A DNA stretch of 42,336 bases, from positions 1 to 42,336 of the forward strand of contig DATFYX010000057.1 of assembly GCA_035314825.1 (NCBI GenBank), in the 5' to 3' direction. Origin of the DNA: Candidatus Eremiobacteraceae bacterium (lineage in GTDB: Bacteria > Vulcanimicrobiota > Vulcanimicrobiia > Eremiobacterales > Eremiobacteraceae). Within the stretch, counting starts at the first letter, position 1. Each line of letters starts with the position of its first letter. A program made the position numbers and the translations under genes. Shown piece by piece: positions 15,082-38,353 of this stretch. Below the pieces are notes generated by a model that saw only the letters and a program-made list of their open reading frames with translations, was not told where the DNA came from and did not search any database.

Positions 15082-15344
15082 GGTTGACGCGGTGCGAATG
15101 CACGCGCGAGCTCTTCACCCAGCCCAAGACCGCCGTCGCGGGCTAGCGCCAGCGCGAGCGCATCGGTGAACAGCGAATACATCAGACCGTCCGCGCCGGT
15201 GCCGCTGCCCGCATCGCCATCATCGGAATCCCAGCCGCGCATTCGGCCGAGTCCCATGCTTTCGATCAGCGGGCGGATCATCACGGCCTCGAACTGCCGG
15301 CAGGCGTCGAGCAATCGCGGTTCCACGGTGCTACCCGCGCTCAA
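15078..15344 (-). CDS. flgJ: FlgJ-like rod-binding protein (no muramidase domain)
   Basis: An 88-residue protein corresponding to only the N-terminal rod-binding domain of FlgJ: ACRQFEAVMIRPLIESMGLG, an acidic glycine-rich loop, MYSLFTDALALALARDGGLGLGEELARAF. In Proteobacteria FlgJ also has a C-terminal peptidoglycan hydrolase; its absence is usual outside that group. The protein caps or chaperones rod assembly in the periplasm. TTG 15344 overlaps flgG by 14 bp; GTG 15326 is a good alternative start. It is followed by the sigma factor with an ATGA overlap. Confidence 0.8.
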   Translation of the reverse strand: MSAGSTVEPRLLDACRQFEAVMIRPLIESMGLGRMRGWDSDDGDAGSGTGADGLMYSLFTDALALALARDGGLGLGEELARAFAPRQP

Positions 15345-16065
15345 GGTTGTTCGCGAGGCGCAGCATCTCGTCGGCGGCCTGCACGCTTTTCGCGTTAGCC
15401 TCGTACGCGCGCTGCGCCGCGAGCACGGACATCATCGCGTTGACCACATTGATGTTCGCGCGCTCGAGACAATGCTGGCGCAGCTTGCCGAAGCCGCCCG
15501 AGTCGGGCGCGCCGCGCACCACCGGCCCGGCGTCGCGCGAGGCGTAGAACAGACCGTCGTCGCCCAGGCGCAGCGCGGACAGATTCGCAAACGAGCACAA
15601 TCCGATGCGTCCGGCGTCGACCGCAGCGGGTTTGCCGGCGACCCGTGCGTGAATGCGCCCGTCTTGATCGAACGTCACCGACAGCGTGCCGGCCGGCAAG
15701 CGGACGTGCGCGAGCGCGGCATTGTTGGGTAAGCGGAGCATCCCTGCGACATCGCGAGCGAAGTTGCCCGCGCGCGTGTAGGCGACGGCGCCGGAGGCGC
15801 TTCGCACTTCGAATAGTCCTTGGCCGTCGATCGCGAGATCGAAATCGTTGCTGGTCGCATCGAGTTTGCCTTGGGAGAACAGGCGCACGGAGTGCTGCGA
15901 TAGTGCGCCCATGCCGCGGCCATCGGGACCGATCAGCGACGCGAACTCAGGCCGGTCGGCACGAAAGCCGGGCGTGTCGACATTGGAGAGGTTGGCGGCG
16001 ATGATATCGAGCACGTTTTGCTGCGCGGCCATGCCCGACGCGCCTGCGGCTAAAGCGCGGTTCAC
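15331..16065 (-). CDS. flgG: Flagellar basal-body rod protein FlgG
   Basis: A 244-residue distal rod protein of the flagellar basal body. It shows the N-terminal rod/hook helix (GASGMAAQQNVLDIIAANLSNVDTPGF), the FDLAIDGQGLFEV and YTRAGNFARD central motifs, and the C-terminal LERANINVVNAMMSVLAAQRAYEANAKSVQAADEML helix. It is exported by the flagellar type III system and so lacks a signal peptide. GTG 16065 overlaps the stop of the upstream flgF-like gene (GTGA). It is slightly shorter than the 260 residues usual for FlgG; the usual GTVDVAR-type strand looks degenerate. Confidence 0.92.
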   Translation of the reverse strand: MNRALAAGASGMAAQQNVLDIIAANLSNVDTPGFRADRPEFASLIGPDGRGMGALSQHSVRLFSQGKLDATSNDFDLAIDGQGLFEVRSASGAVAYTRAGNFARDVAGMLRLPNNAALAHVRLPAGTLSVTFDQDGRIHARVAGKPAAVDAGRIGLCSFANLSALRLGDDGLFYASRDAGPVVRGAPDSGGFGKLRQHCLERANINVVNAMMSVLAAQRAYEANAKSVQAADEMLRLANNLERG

Positions 16066-16700
16066 GGCTTCACCGCCGGCAGCTCGACGACCGCGCGCTT
16101 AAGCGCTTCGTCCGTCTGCTGCGCCGCTTTCTGGTCGGCCTCGAACGCCCGCTCGGCTGCGACGAGCGAGGTCATCTCCGCGATCGGGTCGACGCCGGAC
16201 TCCTCGAGATAGCCCGCGCGGACTGACGCACGCCCGCGTTGCGGTCTTCCAGTTTCGAGGTCGACGATGCGCAGGCGGTCGATGACGCGGCCGTGCGAGA
16301 AGACGCGGCCATCCGCGTGGATGGCAGCGCCAGGCGGAAGGTGTACCGCGCCGAGCGAGCCGAGCACGTGTCTGCCGCGCACGTCGCACAGCGCGCCATC
16401 GGCATCGAGCGACATCCGGCCGTCGCGCGTGTACTCGACGCCGCTCGTGCCCGCTACCGCGAAATAACCGGGACCGACCAGGGCCAGGTCGGTGGGAACG
16501 CCGGTGCGGCGCAGCGCTCCTTGGGCCGGTGCGGCGACCACCGCGTTTTGCATCTGTTCGCCGAAACCGCGTACCACCGATCGCCGTGGACTGTAACCGG
16601 GCGTCTCCGCGTTGGCCAGATTTTCGGCGATGGCGTCGAGGCGGGATGTCTGCGCCTGCATGCCGGCCGCTGCGCTCGCAAGCGCATTAGGAAGTTGCAT
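16062..16700 (-). CDS. flgF: Flagellar basal-body rod protein, FlgF-like
   Basis: A 212-residue flagellar rod/hook family protein with the N-terminal MQAQTSRLDAIAENLANAETPGYSPRR motif, a central DLALVGPGYFAVAGTSGVEYTRDGRMSLDADG block and a C-terminal ESGVDPIAEMTSLVAAERAFEADQKAAQQTDEAL helix. It pairs with the downstream flgG and is shorter, so FlgF (proximal rod) is the most likely assignment; a second FlgG copy is the alternative. ATG 16700 follows GGAGG with six-base spacing. It is the first gene of the overlapping flagellar run; the promoter may lie in the 137 bp upstream, but I see no convincing sigma-28 box. Confidence 0.85.
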   Translation of the reverse strand: MQLPNALASAAAGMQAQTSRLDAIAENLANAETPGYSPRRSVVRGFGEQMQNAVVAAPAQGALRRTGVPTDLALVGPGYFAVAGTSGVEYTRDGRMSLDADGALCDVRGRHVLGSLGAVHLPPGAAIHADGRVFSHGRVIDRLRIVDLETGRPQRGRASVRAGYLEESGVDPIAEMTSLVAAERAFEADQKAAQQTDEALKRAVVELPAVKP

Positions 16701-25418: not shown

Positions 25419-26345
25419 CTACTTGTTCGGCGTCGCTGGAGCCGGTGCCGGCGCGGCGGTCGCGGGCGCCACCGGAGCCGGCGACGGGAACAGATCCTGG
25501 TAGCGCGGGTCCTCGACCTCGATCTTCGCGCTGGCCCGCAACTGGTTCATGAACGGCTGGATCTGCAGCGATTCTTGCTGTTTCTTGATCTGGTCGATCA
25601 CCGCTTCTTTGGTCAGCGGCTTGACCCCCTCGACCTGGATGACGTGCCAGCCGAACGGCGTCTGCACCGGCGCGCTGATCTGGCCGGGCTTGAGCGCGAA
25701 CGCCGCGTTCTGGAACGCCGGCACCATCTGGCCCGGGCCGAACCAACCGAGGTCGCCGCCCTTGTCCTTGGTGCCAGGATCGATCGAGTACTGCTTGGCG
25801 AGCGTCGCGAAATCGGCGCCCTTCTTGAGCTGCGCCTCGATCATTTCCGCTTGCGCCTTGCTCTTGACGAGGATGTGGCGCGCCTGCACCTGTGCCGGCT
25901 GCCCGAGCACCAGGTGCTGCTGCTTGAGATAATCGTTGACCTGCGCATCGGTGACGGTGATGTTCTGGTCGACCGCTTTGGTCGTCAGGATGTTCTGGCG
26001 CACGAGCTTGCGCGCGTCGTCCATGCTGATGCCTTGCGACTTCAACATCGTGTCGAACTGGCCGGGCGGGAAATGCGATTCGATCTCGGTGAGCTTGTCG
26101 TTCACTTCGGCATCGGTCGCGGTGATGTTGTGCTCTTTGGCGTACTGGAAGATAAGGTCTTGCTGGACCATTCCAGCGAGGGTGTTCTTGCCGCCCTGCT
26201 GCTCGAGTTTGGCGTCGAGCTCACCTTTGGTGATCTTCTCGCCGTTGACCGTCGCGACGGTCTTCTGGTCGCCGCATCCCGTCATGAGCAGCACCGCGCA
26301 TGCGGCGGCCATGAGCGATGCGAGCGTCGCGAACCTGGACTTCAT
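25419..26345 (-). CDS. prsA: PrsA/SurA-like parvulin peptidyl-prolyl isomerase lipoprotein
   Basis: A 308-residue exported foldase. The N-terminus is a lipoprotein signal (KSRFATLASLMAAACAVLLMTGC) with a lipobox ending at Cys about 24, so Lgt and LspA encoded here would process it. A SurA-N-like helical region follows (about 30-145), then a parvulin domain (QARHILVKSKAQAEMIEAQLKKGADFATLAKQYS to PFGWHVIQVEGVKP, about 150-245), and a Pro/Ala-rich tail. It helps fold secreted or outer-membrane proteins. GGAGG sits almost against the first ATG (26348), so I prefer the next ATG, 26345. The start is 11 bp from the mfd stop. Confidence 0.9.
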   Translation of the reverse strand: MKSRFATLASLMAAACAVLLMTGCGDQKTVATVNGEKITKGELDAKLEQQGGKNTLAGMVQQDLIFQYAKEHNITATDAEVNDKLTEIESHFPPGQFDTMLKSQGISMDDARKLVRQNILTTKAVDQNITVTDAQVNDYLKQQHLVLGQPAQVQARHILVKSKAQAEMIEAQLKKGADFATLAKQYSIDPGTKDKGGDLGWFGPGQMVPAFQNAAFALKPGQISAPVQTPFGWHVIQVEGVKPLTKEAVIDQIKKQQESLQIQPFMNQLRASAKIEVEDPRYQDLFPSPAPVAPATAAPAPAPATPNK

Positions 26346-26356
26346 CATTCCTCCAT

Positions 26357-29881: not shown

Positions 29882-30295
29882 TTGAAAACAAACAGAATCG
29901 CCACCACAATTCTGACCGGCATGCTGCTCGCGGCGGGCTGCCTTGCCGTTAGGGCCGACGACGGAGCAGCCGGGCATAACGGCCTGCCGGCCGGGGTGCC
30001 ATACGCGTCGGACACTGACCCTGTGCGCATCACCGCCGTGAACTTCTCACCGAGCGAGCCCAAGCGCGGCGACACCGTCACGGCGGAGGTGACGTGCTCG
30101 AGCAACGCAGCGGCGGTCACCGTCGCAGTGGGAACGATCCGCGTCCTGGTGCCGAAGAAAGCGCCCGGCATCTTCCGCACCCAGCTGCACGTCCCCGCAT
30201 TCGCCTTCTATTCCTCGCATCAGACCGTCATCATCACCGCGATCAGGACGGACGGCGCTACCGCACAGCGCACGATCTCCGTCGACATCCGCTGA
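29882..30295 (+). CDS. Secreted protein with Ig/E-set-like domain, unknown function
   Basis: A 137-residue exported protein I cannot name. It has a signal peptide (MKTNRIATTILTGMLLAAGCLAVRA), with a plausible signal peptidase I site after AVRA and a poor lipobox-like AAGC. The mature part (about 45-137) is beta-rich (DPVRITAVNFSPSEPKRGDTVTAEVTCSS, ending RTISVDIR), resembling an immunoglobulin-like or E-set fold. The TTG start lacks a Shine-Dalgarno sequence and overlaps a TATAAT-like box, so the true start is uncertain; ATG 29921 is an alternative. It lies 3 bp before deoB and may share its transcript. Confidence 0.65.
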   Translation: MKTNRIATTILTGMLLAAGCLAVRADDGAAGHNGLPAGVPYASDTDPVRITAVNFSPSEPKRGDTVTAEVTCSSNAAAVTVAVGTIRVLVPKKAPGIFRTQLHVPAFAFYSSHQTVIITAIRTDGATAQRTISVDIR

Positions 30296-30298
30296 CCT

Positions 30299-31453
30299 GT
30301 GGCCGGCCCATCGGTCATCGTGCTCGTCATCGATTCGGGCGGCGTCGGCGCCGCGCCGGACGCCGCCGCCTTCCACGACTCCCCGACGGTCAACACGCTC
30401 GGCAACACCGCGGCGGCAGCAGGCGGCCTCGCCCTGCCGACCTTCGAGAAGTTGGGGTTAGGCAACATCACCGATATGCGCGGCGTCGCGCACGCGGCAT
30501 CCCCGCGCGCGTCGTGGGGTCGCTTGCGCGAGGTGAGCGCGGGCAAAGACACGATCACCGGACACTGGGAGATGATGAACATCGTCATCCGGACGGCGTT
30601 CCCGACGTATCCGCGCGGCTTTCCGCCGGACGTGGTGGAGCGCTTCGAATCGCTGATCGGAAGACGCGTGCTCGGCAATCGCGCGGCCTCGGGCACGCAG
30701 ATCATCGAGGAGCTCGGCGCCGAACACATGCGGACCGGCCGCCCCATCATCTACACGTCTGCGGATTCGGTTTTTCAGGTGGCCACGCATGAAGACGTCG
30801 TACCGCTGGAAACCCTATGGCACTGGTGCGAACAAGCACGGAGCATCCTCACAGGGGCCAACCGCGTGAATCGGGTCATCGCCCGGCCGTTCGTCGGCGA
30901 GCCTGGCCGCTTCACGCGGACCGCGGGGAGGCGCGACTACGCGGTGGCGCCCCCGCGGCCAAGCATCCTCGATCTGCTCGCCGCCGCAGGTGTGCCGACC
31001 TGCGGTATTGGGAAGATAGGCGACATATACTGCTGCCAGGGTATCGCAGCGGGGAGCCGAACGGGCGACAACGCAGAAGGACTAGCCCGGACGCGGGAGT
31101 GGTTGGATGCGGGACAGGGCGGTTTCTGCTTCACAAACCTCAACGATTTCGACTCGAAGTACGGCCACCGTCGCGACCCCGACGGCTACGCCAAGGCACT
31201 GCTGGCGCTGGACCGGAGTTTGCCCGATATTCTCGATCGATTGAAGGACGGAGATCGACTGATAATCACGGCTGACCACGGATGCGACCCCACCGCAGCC
31301 GGCACCGACCACACGCGTGAATACGCCCCGCTCCTCGACTACGCTCCCGGCAAACCGGGCCGCGCGTTGGGCGAGCTCATCTCGTTCGCACAAGTCGGCA
31401 GCCGCGTCATGGAGTCATTTGGTTTGACCGCACCGGAGCCGCTTCTCGCATGA
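30299..31453 (+). CDS. deoB: Phosphopentomutase
   Basis: A 384-residue alkaline-phosphatase-fold metalloenzyme that interconverts (deoxy)ribose 1- and 5-phosphates in nucleoside metabolism. Visible are the metal ligand in VIDSGGVGAAPDA, the activating threonine in GKDTITGHWEMM, IYTSADSVFQVATHE, the FVGEPGRFTRT loop, and the C-terminal ADHGCDPTAAGTDHTREYAP metal site. GTG 30299 starts three bases after the previous stop. Its own stop overlaps the sugar transferase ATG (ATGA), an unusual neighbour for a nucleoside-salvage enzyme. No deoA, deoC or cdd lies nearby. Confidence 0.96.
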   Translation: MAGPSVIVLVIDSGGVGAAPDAAAFHDSPTVNTLGNTAAAAGGLALPTFEKLGLGNITDMRGVAHAASPRASWGRLREVSAGKDTITGHWEMMNIVIRTAFPTYPRGFPPDVVERFESLIGRRVLGNRAASGTQIIEELGAEHMRTGRPIIYTSADSVFQVATHEDVVPLETLWHWCEQARSILTGANRVNRVIARPFVGEPGRFTRTAGRRDYAVAPPRPSILDLLAAAGVPTCGIGKIGDIYCCQGIAAGSRTGDNAEGLARTREWLDAGQGGFCFTNLNDFDSKYGHRRDPDGYAKALLALDRSLPDILDRLKDGDRLIITADHGCDPTAAGTDHTREYAPLLDYAPGKPGRALGELISFAQVGSRVMESFGLTAPEPLLA

Positions 31454-32157
31454 TCGCCACCAGCGCCACCGCGGCCGCTCAAACCGTCGTCGGGCGTCCG
31501 CTTCCGGAGATGCAGCGGCGGTCGCAACGGATCGCCGACAGCCGCACCGCGCCGCTCTCATGGCGCATCGCCAAGCGCGCGCTGGACATCGTCCTATCGG
31601 CGCTTCTCTTGGTGATCCTCGCGCCGGTGTTCGGGCTCATCGCCGTCGGCATCAAGCTCAGCTCGCCCGGACCGGTGTTCTTCTCGCAGATGCGCGTCGG
31701 CAAACGGGGCCGCGAGTTCCGCTTCTACAAGTTCCGCACGATGGTGGACGGCGCGCATCTGCTGCACGAACACGTCCTGCATCTCAACGAGCTCGACGGC
31801 CCGGCGCTCAAGATCGCCGACGATCCGCGCGTGCACGACTTCGGCACCGTGTTGCGGCGCACGAGCCTCGACGAACTCCCGCAGCTGTGGAACGTGCTGC
31901 GCGGCGACATGAGCCTTGTCGGGCCGCGCCCGGCATTGCCGCGTGAAGTGGCTAACTACGAACCGCACTACCTGCAGCGCCTCGCGGTGATGCCGGGGAT
32001 CACCGGGTTGTGGCAGGTGAGCGGCCGCGCCAACGTGCCGTTCCGCCGCTGGATGGCGATGGACGTCTGGTACGCCCGCCACTGGAATCCGCTGCTCGAC
32101 CTATGGATCTTGGCGCGCACCGTGCCCGCGGTTTTTCGCGGGGAAGGCGCGTGGTAA
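31450..32157 (+). CDS. Undecaprenyl-phosphate sugar phosphotransferase
   Basis: A 235-residue bacterial sugar transferase (WcaJ/WbaP C-domain family) that moves a sugar phosphate from a UDP- or GDP-sugar to undecaprenyl phosphate, the first step of many capsule or O-antigen pathways. After a Ser/Arg-rich leader comes KRALDIVLSALLLVILAPVFGLIAVGIKLSSPGPVFFSQMRVG, a re-entrant membrane helix with the KR-D motif. It is followed by FRFYKFRTMVDGA, LRRTSLDELPQLWNVLRGDMSLVGPRP and PGITGLWQVSGR. The four-helix N-terminal domain of WcaJ is absent, making it a minimal PglC-like form. The sugar is not predictable. Overlaps deoB. Confidence 0.94.
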   Translation: MIATSATAAAQTVVGRPLPEMQRRSQRIADSRTAPLSWRIAKRALDIVLSALLLVILAPVFGLIAVGIKLSSPGPVFFSQMRVGKRGREFRFYKFRTMVDGAHLLHEHVLHLNELDGPALKIADDPRVHDFGTVLRRTSLDELPQLWNVLRGDMSLVGPRPALPREVANYEPHYLQRLAVMPGITGLWQVSGRANVPFRRWMAMDVWYARHWNPLLDLWILARTVPAVFRGEGAW

Positions 32158-33548
32158 CGGCCCCCTTGCTGTTGTTGCCCCCAGTCGTCGACCAAACCAT
32201 CCACCAAACGCCGCTCACGATCGTCTCCGCCGTGCTCTTCGTGCTCGCCGGTCTCGCCGCGTTATGGTTATGCCTGCGCCGCCCCCAATGGGCGGCGGCT
32301 CTCATCGCGTTTGTGATCCCTTTTGCGTTCTACCGCGACTTCATGCACACGACCATCACCCTCGAAAAGGTCGTGATCATCGGCGTGGCGATCGGTCTGG
32401 TGCTGCGAGGCGCTCCGCTCGTCCCCGCGAGCGCGCCGGCGCGCCGCATCCTCATCGCGGGTCTGATCGTGCTCGCGGCGATCGCGATCTCCGGCATCCA
32501 GGCTACCTATCCGGGTCCGGTGCTGCGCGAAGCCCTCAAACAGGTCGAATACTTGGTGATGTTCTGGTGCGCCGCGAGCTTGGTGATCGAACAGCGCGAG
32601 GACTTGCGCTGGATCGAGGCGGGCATCATCGCGTCGGTGCTCGTCGTGTCGCTCGATGCGGTCGCACAGGGCTTGCTCGGCGGCGCGCCTTCAGGCGTGT
32701 GGATCAACGGCCACCGCCTGCCGCGGGTCGCCGGACCGCTGGAAGGACCCAATCAGCTGGGCGGCTTCTTGCAGATGGCATTGCCGGTGCTGTTCCTATC
32801 TCCGCTGCTGCTGAGCGATCGCCTGCGCGCGCTGCGCTGGATCGCGATCTTCGCCGCGGCGCTTGCGATCCCGATGACGCTGTCGCGCTCCGGCGTAGCG
32901 TTCGCGCTGGCCGCCTTCGCGTTGGTATGGTTCGTCGACCGCGCTGCGGCGCGCAAGTCGTGGATCCCGTTCGCAGCCGGCACGCTGGCCGGCTTCGCGA
33001 TCGCGATCCAATGGTATTGGGGAGCAACGCACAGCTTCGCGCTGCTCGGCGACATCTTCCGGCTTTCCGAAGTGCCGCTGCAAGACCCGGGCGGCGTCGG
33101 CACGCGCAACGAGCTGTGGAACGCCGCGCTCGCGATGTTCGGCGCGCATCCGCTGATCGGCGTCGGGGCCGGCAACTTCGAGCATCTGCTCTCGACGGTC
33201 GGTTTGGCCAACGTCCAGACGCACGCGAACAGCCTCTGGCTGCAGACGCTGGCCGAGCAAGGGCTCGTCGGGTTCATCGCACTGCTCGCCCTCTACGTCG
33301 TCGTGTTGCGCGAATGCGGGCTCGGCCTCTCGCAGTCGTGGCTCGCGCGCGCGGCGCTGGTCGCGACCATCTGCCTGCTGCTCCACCAGGTCTTCGACGA
33401 TCTGTTCTTCTTTCCGAAGGTCGGCCTGCTGTGGTGGCTGCTGATCGGCGCGGCGGCCGGCGACCTCGCCGGCGCTCGAGCGCAGGTGCGTGCGCCGGCC
33501 GCGGCGGCGTCGGCCGAGCTGCGCGAAACCGCTACGCCGATCGCCTAA
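32151..33548 (+). CDS. O-antigen ligase/polymerase-like membrane protein
   Basis: A 465-residue protein with about 11 hydrophobic helices and a large periplasmic loop of the Wzy/WaaL type. The C-terminal family region shows GTRNELWNAALAMFGAHPLIGVGAGNFE, then QTHANSLWLQTLAEQGLVGFIALL, the classic O-antigen ligase motif. It either polymerises lipid-linked repeat units or attaches them to an acceptor; the two cannot be separated by sequence. GTG 32151 overlaps the sugar transferase stop; the frame extends further upstream, but only as that gene's shadow. It is followed by the LptD-like gene with a TAATG overlap. Confidence 0.9.
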   Translation: MVTAPLLLLPPVVDQTIHQTPLTIVSAVLFVLAGLAALWLCLRRPQWAAALIAFVIPFAFYRDFMHTTITLEKVVIIGVAIGLVLRGAPLVPASAPARRILIAGLIVLAAIAISGIQATYPGPVLREALKQVEYLVMFWCAASLVIEQREDLRWIEAGIIASVLVVSLDAVAQGLLGGAPSGVWINGHRLPRVAGPLEGPNQLGGFLQMALPVLFLSPLLLSDRLRALRWIAIFAAALAIPMTLSRSGVAFALAAFALVWFVDRAAARKSWIPFAAGTLAGFAIAIQWYWGATHSFALLGDIFRLSEVPLQDPGGVGTRNELWNAALAMFGAHPLIGVGAGNFEHLLSTVGLANVQTHANSLWLQTLAEQGLVGFIALLALYVVVLRECGLGLSQSWLARAALVATICLLLHQVFDDLFFFPKVGLLWWLLIGAAAGDLAGARAQVRAPAAAASAELRETATPIA

Positions 33549-35305
33549 TGCGGGCCCGCGTCGCGCACGCGGCTGTCGCATCGCTGCTCGCGTTCGCGCC
33601 GCTGATCGCGCAAGCCGCCGGCCCGCCGGTCGATCCCCGTCTCGCCGCGCTGCCCGCTCCCATCCGCGTGTCGGCACATCGCGTCGAATACTACGGTGAT
33701 TCCGCGCTGATCGTCGCTCGCGGCGACGTTCACGTGGTCGAACCCGATGGTTCGGTCGTGCAAGGCGACGTCTTCGTCATGAATCTCGGGTTGCGCCGGT
33801 TCTTGGTCGCCGGCCACGTGCGCTTGCAGACCAAAGCCGGCGCGATGTCGGGCGCGGCCTATGCGGATTTCCTCGTGTTCCGCCGCCAGTATTTCGTGCC
33901 GCTCGACCCGGAAGCGGACCGCTGGACGTTCTTCAACTACGATTTCGCGAATCCGAAAAAGGGCCGGCAGATGCCGGGCGATGCGTTCTTCATCCCGGAC
34001 GTCTCCGGCACGAAGCCGTACATCGTCGGCCGGGCCGTGACGATCAACGCCTCTACGTATCTGCGCATGACGCCGGCGACCTTCGTCTTGTTCAACGGCG
34101 CGTTGTGGACCACGCCGCTGCCTCCGTACACGTATAATTTCTCGGCCAATCAGAACTTCGGGGTGAACGCGTTGGCCGGCGCGAGTTTCGACGTGCCGTA
34201 CAATCTGGCCGGCTCGCCCGTGTCGCTCGACGCGCTGCATTTCCGCTACGATCAGGTGCTGCCGGTCAGCACGTACTGGTCGCTCGAGCATCACTCGGTC
34301 TTCGGCGCCGGCTATGCCGTGGCGAGCCTGAATCCGGCGAGCGAACCGCCCAAACAGTGGAATCTATTGAGCTACGACCGCATGTCGCCGGCGAGCGCGC
34401 TGCGCCTCAACACGCAGCTGTTCACCTATCAGTACGGCTTGTCTCAGCCGCTCTCGTCCAGCGGTTACGCTGATCTGCAGTACAATCAGGGCATCCGCCA
34501 GTCGTCGGTGTTGGTCGACGTCACGCAAGAGTACTCAAGCCTGCTGGCGCAGCCGGCGCTCGGGTACTACGGCGATCCGTCGCATCAATGGATCCCGAAT
34601 CACCCATTCATCGGCGGCTTGCAGTGGCAGGGGTACTATCAGAAGCTCTTGCGCACCGGACTCACCTACCGGCTCGCGTCCGGGCTCGGCACGATCCACG
34701 ATGCGTTCGGGGTGAGCAACAGCGGCCAGCCGGAGGTCAACAGTTACTATTTCGCAGGTTCGCTCTTCACGCCGACCTACCGCGGCCCGCTCGGCACCGG
34801 CATCAACGCGGCGTACACGATCAGCCAGTCCTACTTCAGTTTCCCGAACATCGTGCAAGAGCAGACGACGACGGCGACGATCAGCCGGCGCGTCTCGCCG
34901 CACGTGCTGCTGATCGGGTCGGACGTCATCGACAGCGCGACCTCGCGCAACGCGTTCTCGATCATCTCGCCCAACCAGGCGACCGGAGCCGTGCCCCTGC
35001 CGTCGTCCATCGACGGCCTGCCCGTCGTGCTCGGTCCGTTCTTGCGGGCGACCAACCGCGCGTATGGCCTCAACACCGTATGGACGCCGTCGCCGGACTT
35101 CCAATTCACCGTTGCGGCGACCCAATCCGACTATTCGCCGCAACAGGCGCCTTTGGCGACCGGACCGCCGAGATATCAGATCAGCGGCGACGTGCGCATG
35201 CGCATCACCCGCGTGCTGTTCCTCGACGCGCAGCGTTCGTATTTCTTCAACTGGGGCGGGCAGACGTGGTCGCCGCACTTCCAGATCTTGATAACGTCGC
35301 AATGA
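33548..35305 (+). CDS. LptD/OstA-like outer-membrane beta-barrel protein
   Basis: A 585-residue exported protein. A signal peptide ending about AQA (residue 23) is followed by an OstA/LptA-like beta-jellyroll (HRVEYYGDSALIVARGDVHVVEPDGSVVQGD). Then comes a long region of alternating short polar-aromatic strands (about 230-585) typical of an outer-membrane barrel. LptD inserts lipopolysaccharide into the outer membrane. This protein is shorter than Proteobacterial LptD, and I cannot place its conserved cysteines, so it may act on another surface lipid or glycan. It follows a sugar transferase and an O-antigen ligase-like gene, which fits surface polymer export. ATG 33548 overlaps the ligase stop. 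Confidence 0.72.
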   Translation: MRARVAHAAVASLLAFAPLIAQAAGPPVDPRLAALPAPIRVSAHRVEYYGDSALIVARGDVHVVEPDGSVVQGDVFVMNLGLRRFLVAGHVRLQTKAGAMSGAAYADFLVFRRQYFVPLDPEADRWTFFNYDFANPKKGRQMPGDAFFIPDVSGTKPYIVGRAVTINASTYLRMTPATFVLFNGALWTTPLPPYTYNFSANQNFGVNALAGASFDVPYNLAGSPVSLDALHFRYDQVLPVSTYWSLEHHSVFGAGYAVASLNPASEPPKQWNLLSYDRMSPASALRLNTQLFTYQYGLSQPLSSSGYADLQYNQGIRQSSVLVDVTQEYSSLLAQPALGYYGDPSHQWIPNHPFIGGLQWQGYYQKLLRTGLTYRLASGLGTIHDAFGVSNSGQPEVNSYYFAGSLFTPTYRGPLGTGINAAYTISQSYFSFPNIVQEQTTTATISRRVSPHVLLIGSDVIDSATSRNAFSIISPNQATGAVPLPSSIDGLPVVLGPFLRATNRAYGLNTVWTPSPDFQFTVAATQSDYSPQQAPLATGPPRYQISGDVRMRITRVLFLDAQRSYFFNWGGQTWSPHFQILITSQ

Positions 35306-36093
35306 AGTTCGCAAATGTAGTAGCGCGATCTCTGATCGCGCTGGCAATGCTGGCGACACCGCTGACCGCGCATGCCCTGCCGACGCCGATCCCGCAGGCA
35401 TCGCAAACGCCGCCGCCCGACCTCGCTGCGCCATCGGCGACGCCGCTGCCGCTGGAGGTGAACGGCCAGGTGATCGACATCGAGCGCGGCTTCATCGTCT
35501 TCACCAGCGGCGATGCTTTGCGCCTGGCGCCGAATGCGGCACTGCTCGACGATGCGACAGGCGCGACGTTGACCAACGCGCCGGCCCCGGGTATATTCGC
35601 GCTGGCCTCGATCGACACGGCGAGCGGCATGGTGACGTCAGTACGGTTCTCGCACAAACCCTTGTCGCAGGGCACGTCCATCACGCAGATCCCGCGCCAA
35701 TACGTCGTGCAGGCATCGCCCCCGCAGGGCAATCCGGAGCTTGAACCGCCAAAGCCGAAGTACACGAGCAAGCTGAGCACGGACACGCTCGTGCGCATCA
35801 CCGTGCAAGTGCCGCCGAACACGCCGTTCACCGACGACGTGTTCATGACCACCGACACGAGCGGCTGGAATCCGCAAGCGGTGAAGATGCAGCGCCAAGA
35901 CGCGATCCATTTCTTCATCGAGCTGCGCCTGCGTACCGGGACCGATTTCCATTTCCTGTTCACGCGCGGCTCGTGGAACAGCGCGGAGCGCGATCGCAAT
36001 GGACTCGAACGCACGGCGCGCGATCTCTACATCGAGGGCAGCGATGCGCTCGCCGTCGATGCGACGGTCTACCGTTGGGCCGATATACCGTGA
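35302..36093 (+). CDS. Secreted protein with CBM20/E-set-like C-terminal domain
   Basis: A 263-residue exported protein. The signal peptide (MKFANVVARSLIALAMLATPLTAHA) is followed by a Pro-rich linker, a small beta domain (about 48-118: NGQVIDIERGFIVFTSGDALRLAP) and a C-terminal domain (about 160-262) with ITVQVPPNTPFTDDVFMTTDTSGWNP and FLFTRGSWNSAERDRNGLE. That second part resembles starch-binding-like modules, including those at the N-terminus of some esterases. Residues for glycan binding cannot be confirmed. ATG 35302 overlaps the LptD-like stop by four bases, so it may be a glycan-binding partner of that pathway. It converges with a minus-strand gene 4 bp away. Confidence 0.75.
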   Translation: MKFANVVARSLIALAMLATPLTAHALPTPIPQASQTPPPDLAAPSATPLPLEVNGQVIDIERGFIVFTSGDALRLAPNAALLDDATGATLTNAPAPGIFALASIDTASGMVTSVRFSHKPLSQGTSITQIPRQYVVQASPPQGNPELEPPKPKYTSKLSTDTLVRITVQVPPNTPFTDDVFMTTDTSGWNPQAVKMQRQDAIHFFIELRLRTGTDFHFLFTRGSWNSAERDRNGLERTARDLYIEGSDALAVDATVYRWADIP

Positions 36094-36097
36094 TGCG

Positions 36098-38353
36098 CTA
36101 CGGGCTGCCTTTGAACTGCACTGGTTGGACGGTATTGGACTGACCAAGTAAGTCGAATCCGGAAAAGGTCACATGCAACGGGGCTGCCGGACGCACCGCG
36201 GCTGCGACGAACGACAAGCGGAATGTGGCTCCCTTGGGGAAGCCCGTTGGCCGCGCGTATTTCCAGAGGTCGATAAGCAGGTCATCCGAGCTCGACTGGA
36301 CAGGCTCGACCACGTACAATCCGCCGGATTCCACCACTTGCGTGCTCGCGACGTCACCCCAGCAGAACGTCACAAAATCGTCGTCGCCATAGATCTCGAT
36401 CCCCGCGAACTGGGTCGGGTGGCCTGCTGCGTCGGCCTTGAAGAGAATCGTCTTCGACACGCGAGCGGTGATTGGCTGATCGAACGGCACATAATTCTGT
36501 TGGACCGACCGAGTCGTCCACATGAGGGCGGGGTTCTTGGTCGGCATCAGCGTGATGCCGACCGTGCCTCGCCGCCCTCCGCCGCGGACGTAGCTAATCG
36601 AACCATCAACCATATCTCCGACGTTCAAACTCCACGCCGCAGGGACGACATATCCTCGATTGACAGGGATCGCGAGCTGAGGGTTTGGGATGTGGACGAT
36701 CGGCGTCAACGCGAGAAAACGATTGCTCAGGTATTCCTCGCCGGTCCGAGCATTCACGATGCGCACTTGTGCCAGTGAGCCCGCCGGAATCGCCGCCAGG
36801 TTGTCCGGCGCGGCGATCACGACCGCTTGTGTCCCGTGCGGGGGCACCGGCTCGCACCCCGTCTCGCAGCGCCAGAGGTACTGTATGAAGTCGTAGGCCA
36901 TGAGGTAGGTTGTGCCAAGAAAATCATCACTATCATTGCGGACGCTCAACGAGACTTTGTCGATAAAACCGAGGTGGTGCGAATCATACAGGCCTGATAT
37001 GGTAGCGTGGATCGGGGGCTCCTTACCGCATCCGAATAGGGCGGTGATCAGTACAACGGCCGCGGCCGCGGGCAGCCACCGCCGCATCCGAACCGCGAAC
37101 GCCCCTGCAAGGCTCTCTTTGAGCTCGATGGCGTCGGGCAACGAACCGAACCAAGACGCCAGACACACCGGCAGTAGAAAAAGGAAGTAGTTTTCAAGCG
37201 ATCGAGGTGCGACCAACAGCGTGAGCCCTGGCGCTAGCCAAACAAGGTTCCGGACGGGTTTGAAAAAAAGTGCCGCGACCAGAAGCAGAGCTATAAAGAC
37301 GCCAGCTGCAACTCTGGTGAGGACTTCCGGCGCCCAATGGACGTGGCCGGAGAGAACGATGTTGACGAGCCCTGCGCCCCACTCGACGTGGTGGGCGATG
37401 AAGGGTTCGAAGACGCCAGCTGCCCATGCCGCGGGCTTGGTGATCGCGAAATATGCGTTCGGCAACATGAATGCGGCAAACGCCGCGGCGACGGCGCGAA
37501 CGAAATTGTGCACTCGCCGTCCGGCCGGAGCTGCCGCGATCACACCGATGAAGAAGAAAGGCGCGTCCAGCCACGGGTCCTGTTTAATGGCGCAGGCGAT
37601 GCCGAAGAATGCCCCAGCAGCGGCTGGCATCTGGGTCCAAAAAAAGGCGGCGAGCATGAGCGGCGCGAGATACAGAATATCCTGCTCGGAGCCGAAAGAG
37701 AAATCGATGCTGCCGGGATCGACCAAGAACACCAAGATCGCGACGCTTCGCAAATGCCGCGGCGCGATCGCATAGAGCAGCGCGATCGACACCAATACTG
37801 CGCAGACGTCGACCCAACGGGGGTCGACGTGTATGAGGAGAGCCGGGATGTATGACAAGAAGGCCAGCGCCGGATACGGCATGGAGCCGACGACTCCGCC
37901 CTCTATTAGGGGCGTGTTGAACGCGATTGGAACGTGGAAGATGTCATATGACGCGGCCAGGTCCAAGCCATATGGATTGATACCGCGCAGAAACAGCTCC
38001 GCCGCGTACAGGCTCAACGCCAGGCCATCTGTCGTGATCACGGGCAATACGTAATGGAGCATCGCGTATGCCCGCATGCAGAGGCCGATGCCCAAGCCGG
38101 ACAAGAGCGCGATGGGGTAATGGTGCGGGAGGGTGCCCTGCAGCGTCAGTATTGAGACGGCGAAGAACAACAAATAGGCGGCGAAGGTCACAACCGCTGC
38201 ATCGGCGTGCTCGACCGTGCCCGTGTTGACCCAGATATAATACGCGTTCCAGAGAAGCCACGCCGAAACGACAACGCCACAAACCCGCAGCACGTCGGCT
38301 TCGCGCGAGCCCGAGGTGTGCGGGATTGGCGCTTCCTGTTGAGAGTCGGACAT
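36098..38353 (-). CDS. Multi-pass membrane GT-C/GT87-like glycosyltransferase with periplasmic C-domain
   Basis: A 751-residue membrane protein with about 11-12 helices in residues 20-465. The motifs RGINPYG and SMPYPALAFLSYIPALL, then ACAIKQDPWLDAPFFF, resemble GT87/DUF2029 polyprenol-dependent mannosyl or arabinosyl transferases; the catalytic Asp is not certain. A C-terminal extracytoplasmic beta-rich domain follows (about 466-751), beginning at GCGKEPPIHA. Base composition is lower in GC than its neighbours: 36901-36960 holds 27 G+C in 60. This suggests acquisition by transfer. It stands alone between the CBM-like gene (convergent) and a methyltransferase (divergent). A function in surface glycan building is inferred from context. 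Confidence 0.72.
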   Translation of the reverse strand: MSDSQQEAPIPHTSGSREADVLRVCGVVVSAWLLWNAYYIWVNTGTVEHADAAVVTFAAYLLFFAVSILTLQGTLPHHYPIALLSGLGIGLCMRAYAMLHYVLPVITTDGLALSLYAAELFLRGINPYGLDLAASYDIFHVPIAFNTPLIEGGVVGSMPYPALAFLSYIPALLIHVDPRWVDVCAVLVSIALLYAIAPRHLRSVAILVFLVDPGSIDFSFGSEQDILYLAPLMLAAFFWTQMPAAAGAFFGIACAIKQDPWLDAPFFFIGVIAAAPAGRRVHNFVRAVAAAFAAFMLPNAYFAITKPAAWAAGVFEPFIAHHVEWGAGLVNIVLSGHVHWAPEVLTRVAAGVFIALLLVAALFFKPVRNLVWLAPGLTLLVAPRSLENYFLFLLPVCLASWFGSLPDAIELKESLAGAFAVRMRRWLPAAAAVVLITALFGCGKEPPIHATISGLYDSHHLGFIDKVSLSVRNDSDDFLGTTYLMAYDFIQYLWRCETGCEPVPPHGTQAVVIAAPDNLAAIPAGSLAQVRIVNARTGEEYLSNRFLALTPIVHIPNPQLAIPVNRGYVVPAAWSLNVGDMVDGSISYVRGGGRRGTVGITLMPTKNPALMWTTRSVQQNYVPFDQPITARVSKTILFKADAAGHPTQFAGIEIYGDDDFVTFCWGDVASTQVVESGGLYVVEPVQSSSDDLLIDLWKYARPTGFPKGATFRLSFVAAAVRPAAPLHVTFSGFDLLGQSNTVQPVQFKGSP

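Follow-up and report, generated by a model that had tools for sequence, protein, structure and literature searches.

Results

An LptD-family protein encoded beside glycan-building genes

We analysed a window of 42,336 nucleotides, which is the whole of contig C57 (DATFYX010000057.1) in the 89-contig, 2.55 Mb genome (97% complete) of a Candidatus Eremiobacteraceae bacterium (GCA_035314825.1). The analysis centred on the gene at 33548-35305, whose product was named LptD2 in this study (also labelled P0001), and on the gene that overlaps its end, referred to here as the partner. We found that LptD2 has the predicted fold of the LptD family and is related to it in sequence, that its gene is paired with that of the partner, and that the genome carries a separate main LptD. 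LptD2 and the partner may serve as a dedicated path by which a glycan or glycolipid crosses the outer membrane, a proposal in which we place about as much belief as doubt. The two genes are as follows.

33548..35305, + strand: LptD2, LptD-family paralogue of 585 amino acids (open reading frame, AlphaFold2, Foldseek, hhalign)
35302..36093, + strand: partner, 263 amino acids, overlapping the LptD2 stop codon (AlphaFold2, Foldseek, VIA-align 2)

The open reading frame (ORF) of LptD2 starts with ATG at 33548 and stops at 35303-35305. Because the nearest relative shares 77% identity, and because a comparison with locus L042 indicated purifying selection (non-synonymous divergence dN 0.155, synonymous divergence dS 0.865), the ORF is coding and not a chance frame. 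Residues 1-24 look like a Sec signal peptide, as judged by eye. The AlphaFold2 model, made from 60 sequences (pLDDT 87.1, pTM 0.79), contained jellyroll strands at residues 39-197 and then a barrel of about 19 long strands at residues 214-584. The first-pass annotation of the window had placed a signal peptide, an OstA-type jellyroll and a barrel short for LptD at 33548-35305; the reading of the signal by eye and, for the other two, the model agree with this. E. coli LptD has 784 amino acids, and its barrel is reported to have 26 strands (PMC10353723).

A Foldseek search with the LptD2 model returned LptD chains in rows 1-14 (12 entries, best E 2.4e-12). Thirteen of these rows were titled LptD; the remaining entry, 4q35, was titled merely 'a membrane protein', and we take it to be an LptD structure. 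The TM-scores of the LptD rows were low (0.25-0.36 by query length), which is expected if the barrel sizes differ. The model strands, the LptD chains at the top of the Foldseek list and an hhalign alignment beginning at residue 33 together indicated that an N-terminal jellyroll of the LptA/LptC type is present.

The sequence relationship was investigated with an alignment of 60 rows (A2), consisting of LptD2 and 59 of 61 retained LptD2-like ORFs (L092 and L094 were left out by choice). The 61 were retained from 69 such ORFs in the named loci after removal of those with less than 25% identity, fewer than 460 aligned residues or the opposite strand. The most conserved parts include a D-R-W-T...G-R-x-M-P-G-D stretch (residues 124-145) and the early barrel strands. 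When A2 was compared with a 21-row alignment of LptD from the same phylum, hhalign aligned 499 columns across jellyroll and barrel (Prob 98.2, E 4e-14); directly against the single E. coli LptD sequence, nothing significant was found (Prob 0.4, E 0.13). The A2 profile matched no PDB chain at E <= 1, and LptD2 had no Pfam family at E <= 1 and no NCBIfam match at E <= 0.1. Among the 60 family members, OstA_2 was weakly matched in eight (best E 0.0064), LptC and LptD_N in two each, and unrelated families in one or two each. The LptD2 profile also reached the LptC-containing ORF of its own genome (E 2.9e-4). The Pfam LptD family, PF04453, was unmatched in LptD2 at E <= 1 and in all 60 family members. 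This failure says little, since the main LptD of the genome fails PF04453 as well; the family had no match anywhere in the genome, so annotation by PF04453 would miss the main LptD. Judged from these comparisons and from the longer LptD-like gene elsewhere in the genome, LptD2 is a divergent LptD paralogue and not the main LptD of the cell. It falls in the LptD superfamily, yet fails several features of LptD proper.

The partner has a predicted CBM20 fold

The partner start codon overlaps the LptD2 stop by 4 bp (ATGA), so the gene run continues past LptD2, where it had previously been thought to end. The partner was absent from the first-pass annotation and was found here. Its layout suggests a secreted protein and comprises a signal-like start, recognised by eye and without cysteine, a small N-terminal beta domain (residues ~51-117) and a CBM20-fold domain (residues ~159-258). 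The AlphaFold2 model, made from 48 sequences, had a pLDDT of 86.5 and a pTM of 0.49; because of this pTM, the arrangement of the domains is uncertain. Chains with CBM20 domains ranked first in both Foldseek and VIA-align 2. The top three VIA-align 2 rows had Z values of 11.3, 10.8 and 10.8, with residues 491-599 of Hypocrea glucoamylase at 11.3 (root-mean-square deviation 2.5 over 95 residues) and STBD1 at 10.8. These comparisons indicate that the CBM20 beta-sandwich fold is present in the partner.

The partner family was aligned in 48 rows (A3), obtained from 50 by omitting two, the first L056 copy and the truncated L052. A further alignment, A4, equals A3 without L092, which contained X. W189 and W225 presumably correspond to the aromatic pair in the sugar-binding site of CBM20. 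The W189 column held W in 43 of the 48 rows and F or Y in five. Searched against PDB chains, the A3 profile gave one weak match (E 0.74). A second frame in the same genome (contig C64:25643-26014, one TAG flagged) matched the CBM20-like part of the partner profile with E 9.5e-35, and genomes of the window's family likewise carry a second match to this profile.

LptD2 and the partner occur together across one class

A scan of named genomes with the LptD2 family alignment gave 57 loci. Forty-six were titled Eremiobacterota, Eremiobacteria or Eremiobacter, and 11 were titled Vulcanimicrobiota, UBP12, unnamed bacterium or, in two cases, Rhodospirillales; the last two are perhaps misnamed bins. The LptD2 family profile matched 108 of 148 sampled genomes of the phylum. 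The window's class accounts for 106 of these (from 116 genomes) and the rest of the phylum for 2 (from 32). A search with the single LptD2 protein instead of the profile matched 105 of 148. Another LptD2 paralogue of the same genome, P0003 (contig C86, L037:11553-13046), has at least 497 amino acids and 28% identity over residues 19-283, and it adjoins a gene of sugar-epimerase type. In genome G064, the sole match to the LptD2 profile was of the P0003 type.

A partner frame lay directly 3' of the LptD2-family gene in 58 of 58 testable copies, although many of these downstream neighbours also went into the partner profile, and the 4-bp start/stop overlap was found in 49. Testable copies were LptD2-family ORFs in loci L038-L094 with at least 600 bases downstream; four that were open at a contig end and five with less than 600 bases were set aside. 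Tandem LptD2 copies each bring their own partner, for example at L056, L058, L064 and L070. Over the 148 genomes, both profiles were found in 101, one alone in 9 (several weak or at contig ends) and neither in 38 (Fisher p 1e-25, which ignores the relatedness of the genomes; the profiles also catch P0003-type and other paralogues). This table and the splits by class and phylum were counted by hand. Among the papers listed for LptD homologues or paralogues, for LptD with carbohydrate-binding modules, and for the outer membrane or lipopolysaccharide (LPS) of Eremiobacterota in open-access literature, with subscription papers and preprints lying mostly outside, none described the pair in its title or abstract opening.

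The host carries LPS genes and a separate main LptD

By its gene content, the host is judged to be an LPS-bearing diderm. One stretch of contig C72 encodes TamB, BamA (four POTRA stretches and an Omp85 domain), LpxD, LpxC, LpxA, LpxB, an LptC-bearing ORF, LptB (TIGR04406 above cut-off) and an LptF/LptG permease, together with OmpH-type proteins, one clear and one sub-threshold. A second LptF/LptG permease is encoded on contig C1. The same contig has an LptA-like ORF of up to 641 amino acids (C1:54351-56276, L113:1352-3277) with several OstA/LptA/LptC-type repeats, which perhaps provides a ready-made periplasmic bridge. These Lpt, Bam and lpx genes bear out the earlier suggestion of a diderm with LPS, and the WhiA and SepF genes named along with it were both located in the window. 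That the phylum is diderm with LPS genes has been published (PMC6664022, PMC9758169). WPS-2 genomes are reported to carry LPS genes and BamA (PMC6664022), and the first isolate to show a Gram-negative wall by electron microscopy (PMC9758169).

The candidate for the main LptD lies on contig C1.

C1:123159-125669: P0002, main LptD candidate, 837 amino acids from the first start codon, beside an LptG permease gene

P0002 matched LptD_N below threshold (E 0.022) and gave three weak matches among PDB chains (best E 0.11). Its family alignment of 21 rows, consisting of P0002 and sequences from 20 genomes chosen by hand among the 142 that matched, aligned with E. coli LptD over 176 N-terminal columns (hhalign, Prob 94.7, E 5.7e-8). 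The Cys of a 'TTC/TSC' motif lined up with E. coli LptD and was present in all 21 rows. Near the C-terminus, Cys occupied another column in 13 of 21 rows, and the match of this column to E. coli came through a low-probability alignment. The main LptD family was found in 142 of 148 genomes of the phylum, including all 85 of the better ones. An LptG-like ORF lay within the 2-kb flank of the main LptD in 10 of 20 fetched relatives. Among the other ten, the contig breaks off on the relevant side in two; the eight that are left come from outside the class and had no LptG-like ORF there. LptD2 as the main LptD of this genome was rejected, as P0002 beside LptG fits that role. Because the main LptD is separate, LptD2 is probably not needed for LPS as such, and because the main LptD family is itself so widespread, LPS export need not use LptD2.

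LptD2 could instead be a second LptD for ordinary LPS, serving other conditions or LPS with another O-chain and supplied through the same LptA bridge, with the partner as a local substitute for LptE. Its homology with the LptD of the genome across jellyroll and barrel would agree with this, as would the lpx and lpt genes of the genome, the Wzy_C ligase-like gene adjoining LptD2 and the other ligase-like domain that is fused to LptC in the same genome. However, LptD2 has no cysteines and a smaller barrel and, given the breadth of the main LptD family, may be dispensable for LPS export. Also, the scans of window ORFs and of neighbourhood clusters revealed no lpt gene. We therefore consider a second LptD for LPS unlikely.

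Two further observations were made on contig C72. An ORF of 615 amino acids just before LptB (C72:31644-33491, L034:15644-17491) fuses an O-antigen-ligase-like domain (TIGR00947 and PEP_O_lig_1, both below cut-off) to an LptC domain (TIGR04409, above cut-off), and in several relatives the two parts sit side by side in separate frames. The fusion and this adjacency may reflect coupling between ligation and the extraction of LPS. Not far past the Lpt genes, a protein of 963 amino acids with an S-layer homology domain (C72:36781-39672, L035:781-3672) is possibly an outer-membrane tether of the OmpM type. Such tethers are known in diderm Terrabacteria.

Gene neighbourhood in the window and in relatives

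The genes flanking LptD2 and the partner are listed below.

29882..30295, + strand: small secreted protein at the head of the gene run, with related ORFs in 2 of 57 named loci
30299..31453, + strand: phosphopentomutase DeoB (PRK05362, E 7.5e-143), overlapping the next gene
31450..32157, + strand: polyprenyl-phosphate sugar-1-phosphate transferase, 235 amino acids (PF02397, E 1.9e-66, above cut-off)
32151..33548, + strand: Wzy_C or O-antigen-ligase-like membrane protein (PF04932, E 5.3e-16, for the ORF from 32010)
36098-38353, - strand: protein of 751 amino acids with many membrane spans by eye and then a soluble-looking C-terminal half, without a Pfam match at E <= 1

The first four, LptD2 and the partner lie in this order on the same strand, overlapping or separated by short gaps. 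The transferase scored 289.7 bits with TIGR03025, slightly below the cut-off of 295.55. For the Wzy_C gene, the start codon (32151) was picked by position, the stop TAA and the LptD2 start have one base in common, and the best NCBIfam match was TIGR00947 at 59 bits, far under cut-off. The sugar-transferase and O-antigen ligase-like neighbours claimed upstream in the first-pass annotation are thus both in place. A metalloenzyme gene with PF01676 was rejected as part of the module, as it is the phosphopentomutase; DeoB is probably a housekeeping neighbour outside the export module. On the minus strand, the 36098-38353 gene ends a few bases beyond the partner gene. Elsewhere on this strand of the window, at 15331-16700 and 25419-26348, are a pair of flagellar rod-type genes (FlgF/FlgG-like) and the gene of a SurA-like peptidyl-prolyl isomerase.

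Among the 57 named loci, not all of which are full length, the BLAST cluster of the transferase was found in 42 and that of the phosphopentomutase in 43, with the window itself left out of both counts. A cluster named MurJ from one scanned member, to which no window ORF belongs, was found in 44, and one likewise named Wzy_C in 22.

The adjacent polyprenyl-phosphate transferase and Wzy_C genes, together with the carbohydrate-binding fold of the partner, would also suit the movement of a free, lipid-less exopolysaccharide through a pore like AlgE or PelB. PelBC appeared in the Foldseek list of LptD2 at rank 48 (E 9.8e-4), and no match to PF02563 (Wza-type) was found in the own genome. However, by hand count 65 of the 116 class members carry a Wza-type exporter, one genome of the same genus among them, with or without LptD2. 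LptD2 as a plain replacement of Wza was rejected for this reason, and we regard an exopolysaccharide pore as quite improbable.

Housekeeping genes share the neighbourhood, namely deoB and Mfd, joined in relatives by MurJ and nucleoside phosphorylase, so part of the synteny is housekeeping and may say nothing on function. If the glycan genes were likewise chance neighbours, LptD2 might move surface lipoproteins or another lipid. The LptD homologue of Borrelia, for which a role as lipoprotein flippase has been proposed and contested (PMC11784454, PMC13317210), offers a precedent, and the ML lipid-recognition domain was weakly matched in 2 of 48 partner relatives (best E 0.00095). The CBM20 fold of the partner and the recurrence of glycan genes near LptD2 across the named loci argue against this, and we give it very little credence.

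Discussion

Proposed role of LptD2 and the partner

LptD is usually regarded as one gene with one cargo. In this study, a barrel of the LptD family, a partner with a carbohydrate-binding fold and adjacent glycan-building enzymes were found together, and a dedicated route is the best explanation of this combination. The cargo would be the product of two neighbouring enzymes, the sugar-phosphate transferase and the Wzy_C protein acting as ligase or polymerase. An amphipathic glycan, for instance a glycolipid or a special form of LPS, would then be taken up by the periplasmic jellyroll of LptD2 after delivery by the Lpt bridge of the cell or by another carrier. Its sugar part would go through the barrel, and its lipid part would be let out sideways into the membrane as in LptD. 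The partner would be the sugar-binding component, serving to guide, plug or select the sugar in a role comparable to that of LptE. Here we infer the export itself, its cargo, the sideways gate and the contact between LptD2 and the partner. A distinct LPS or glycolipid export route had been suggested earlier for this locus. It is plausible because LptD2 is a paralogue and not the main LptD, a place taken by the longer LptD-like gene beside LptG.

Several results weigh against such a route. With respect to the barrel, pilus ushers, Tom40 and porins also matched LptD2 in Foldseek (E 5.3e-7 and weaker), and VIA-align 2 did not single out LptD, giving general barrels Z values of 12.7-15.9 and LptD 13.9 and 13.8. 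The cysteines of the jellyroll-barrel disulfide of LptD are missing, as LptD2 has 0 Cys and no column has Cys in 30% of the 60 rows. With respect to the partner, the protein of the window has no Pfam family at E <= 1. In its 48 relatives, CBM_20 was matched in four (best E 0.034), and better scores came from CBM_56 in two (best E 0.0029) and from the ML domain in two. The W225 column is variable, with W in 17 rows, F in 10, L in 10, M in 5 and others in 6. P0003 has no CBM20-fold partner within the 20 kb read. The Wza-type exporters of the class and the housekeeping genes of the neighbourhood, both described above, add to these points.

A further step would be to regard LptD2 and the partner as a separate class of outer-membrane glycan export, in which an LptD-derived barrel outside the LPS pathway works with an obligate sugar-recognising CBM20-fold protein, in use throughout one class of diderm Terrabacteria and beside ordinary LPS export. 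We offer this only tentatively, with more doubt than confidence. If true, a second LptD branch with a sugar-binding-fold partner would mean that the Lpt machinery can be duplicated and redirected, and it would bear on surface building in lineages near the monoderm/diderm split.

Comparison with known systems

LptD2 shares with LptD the jellyroll and barrel fold, and it is homologous to the LptD family of its phylum over both parts. According to published work on LptD, the sugar travels through the barrel while lipid A moves along the N-terminal domain (PMC4353691). LptD2 differs in its fewer strands (about 19 against 26) and shorter chain (585 against 784 amino acids in E. coli LptD), in its lack of cysteines and of a recognised lpt gene beside it, in the overlapping CBM20-fold gene and in being nearly confined to one class.

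The partner resembles CBM20 of glucoamylase, CGTase and STBD1 in the fold of its C-terminal domain. It differs in having no recognised catalytic domain and no Pfam match, and the proposed second site tryptophan is not conserved. GfcD of the E. coli group 4 capsule is, like LptD2, an outer-membrane barrel proposed for the sideways release of a lipid-anchored polysaccharide (PMC11494523). It is reported to have two barrels, of 12 and 13 strands (PMC11494523), and is likened to LptD2 by description only.

The Borrelia LptD homologue BB0838 is similar to LptD2 as a divergent LptD-family barrel with another strand number and a debated role outside LPS. Since 31 strands are predicted for it (PMC10353723), the strand number of the barrel is not strict, and the flippase proposal makes changes of cargo in the LptD family thinkable. 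Borrelia lacks LPS, whereas the genome of the window carries LPS genes and a separate main LptD, so that LptD2 is an extra copy.

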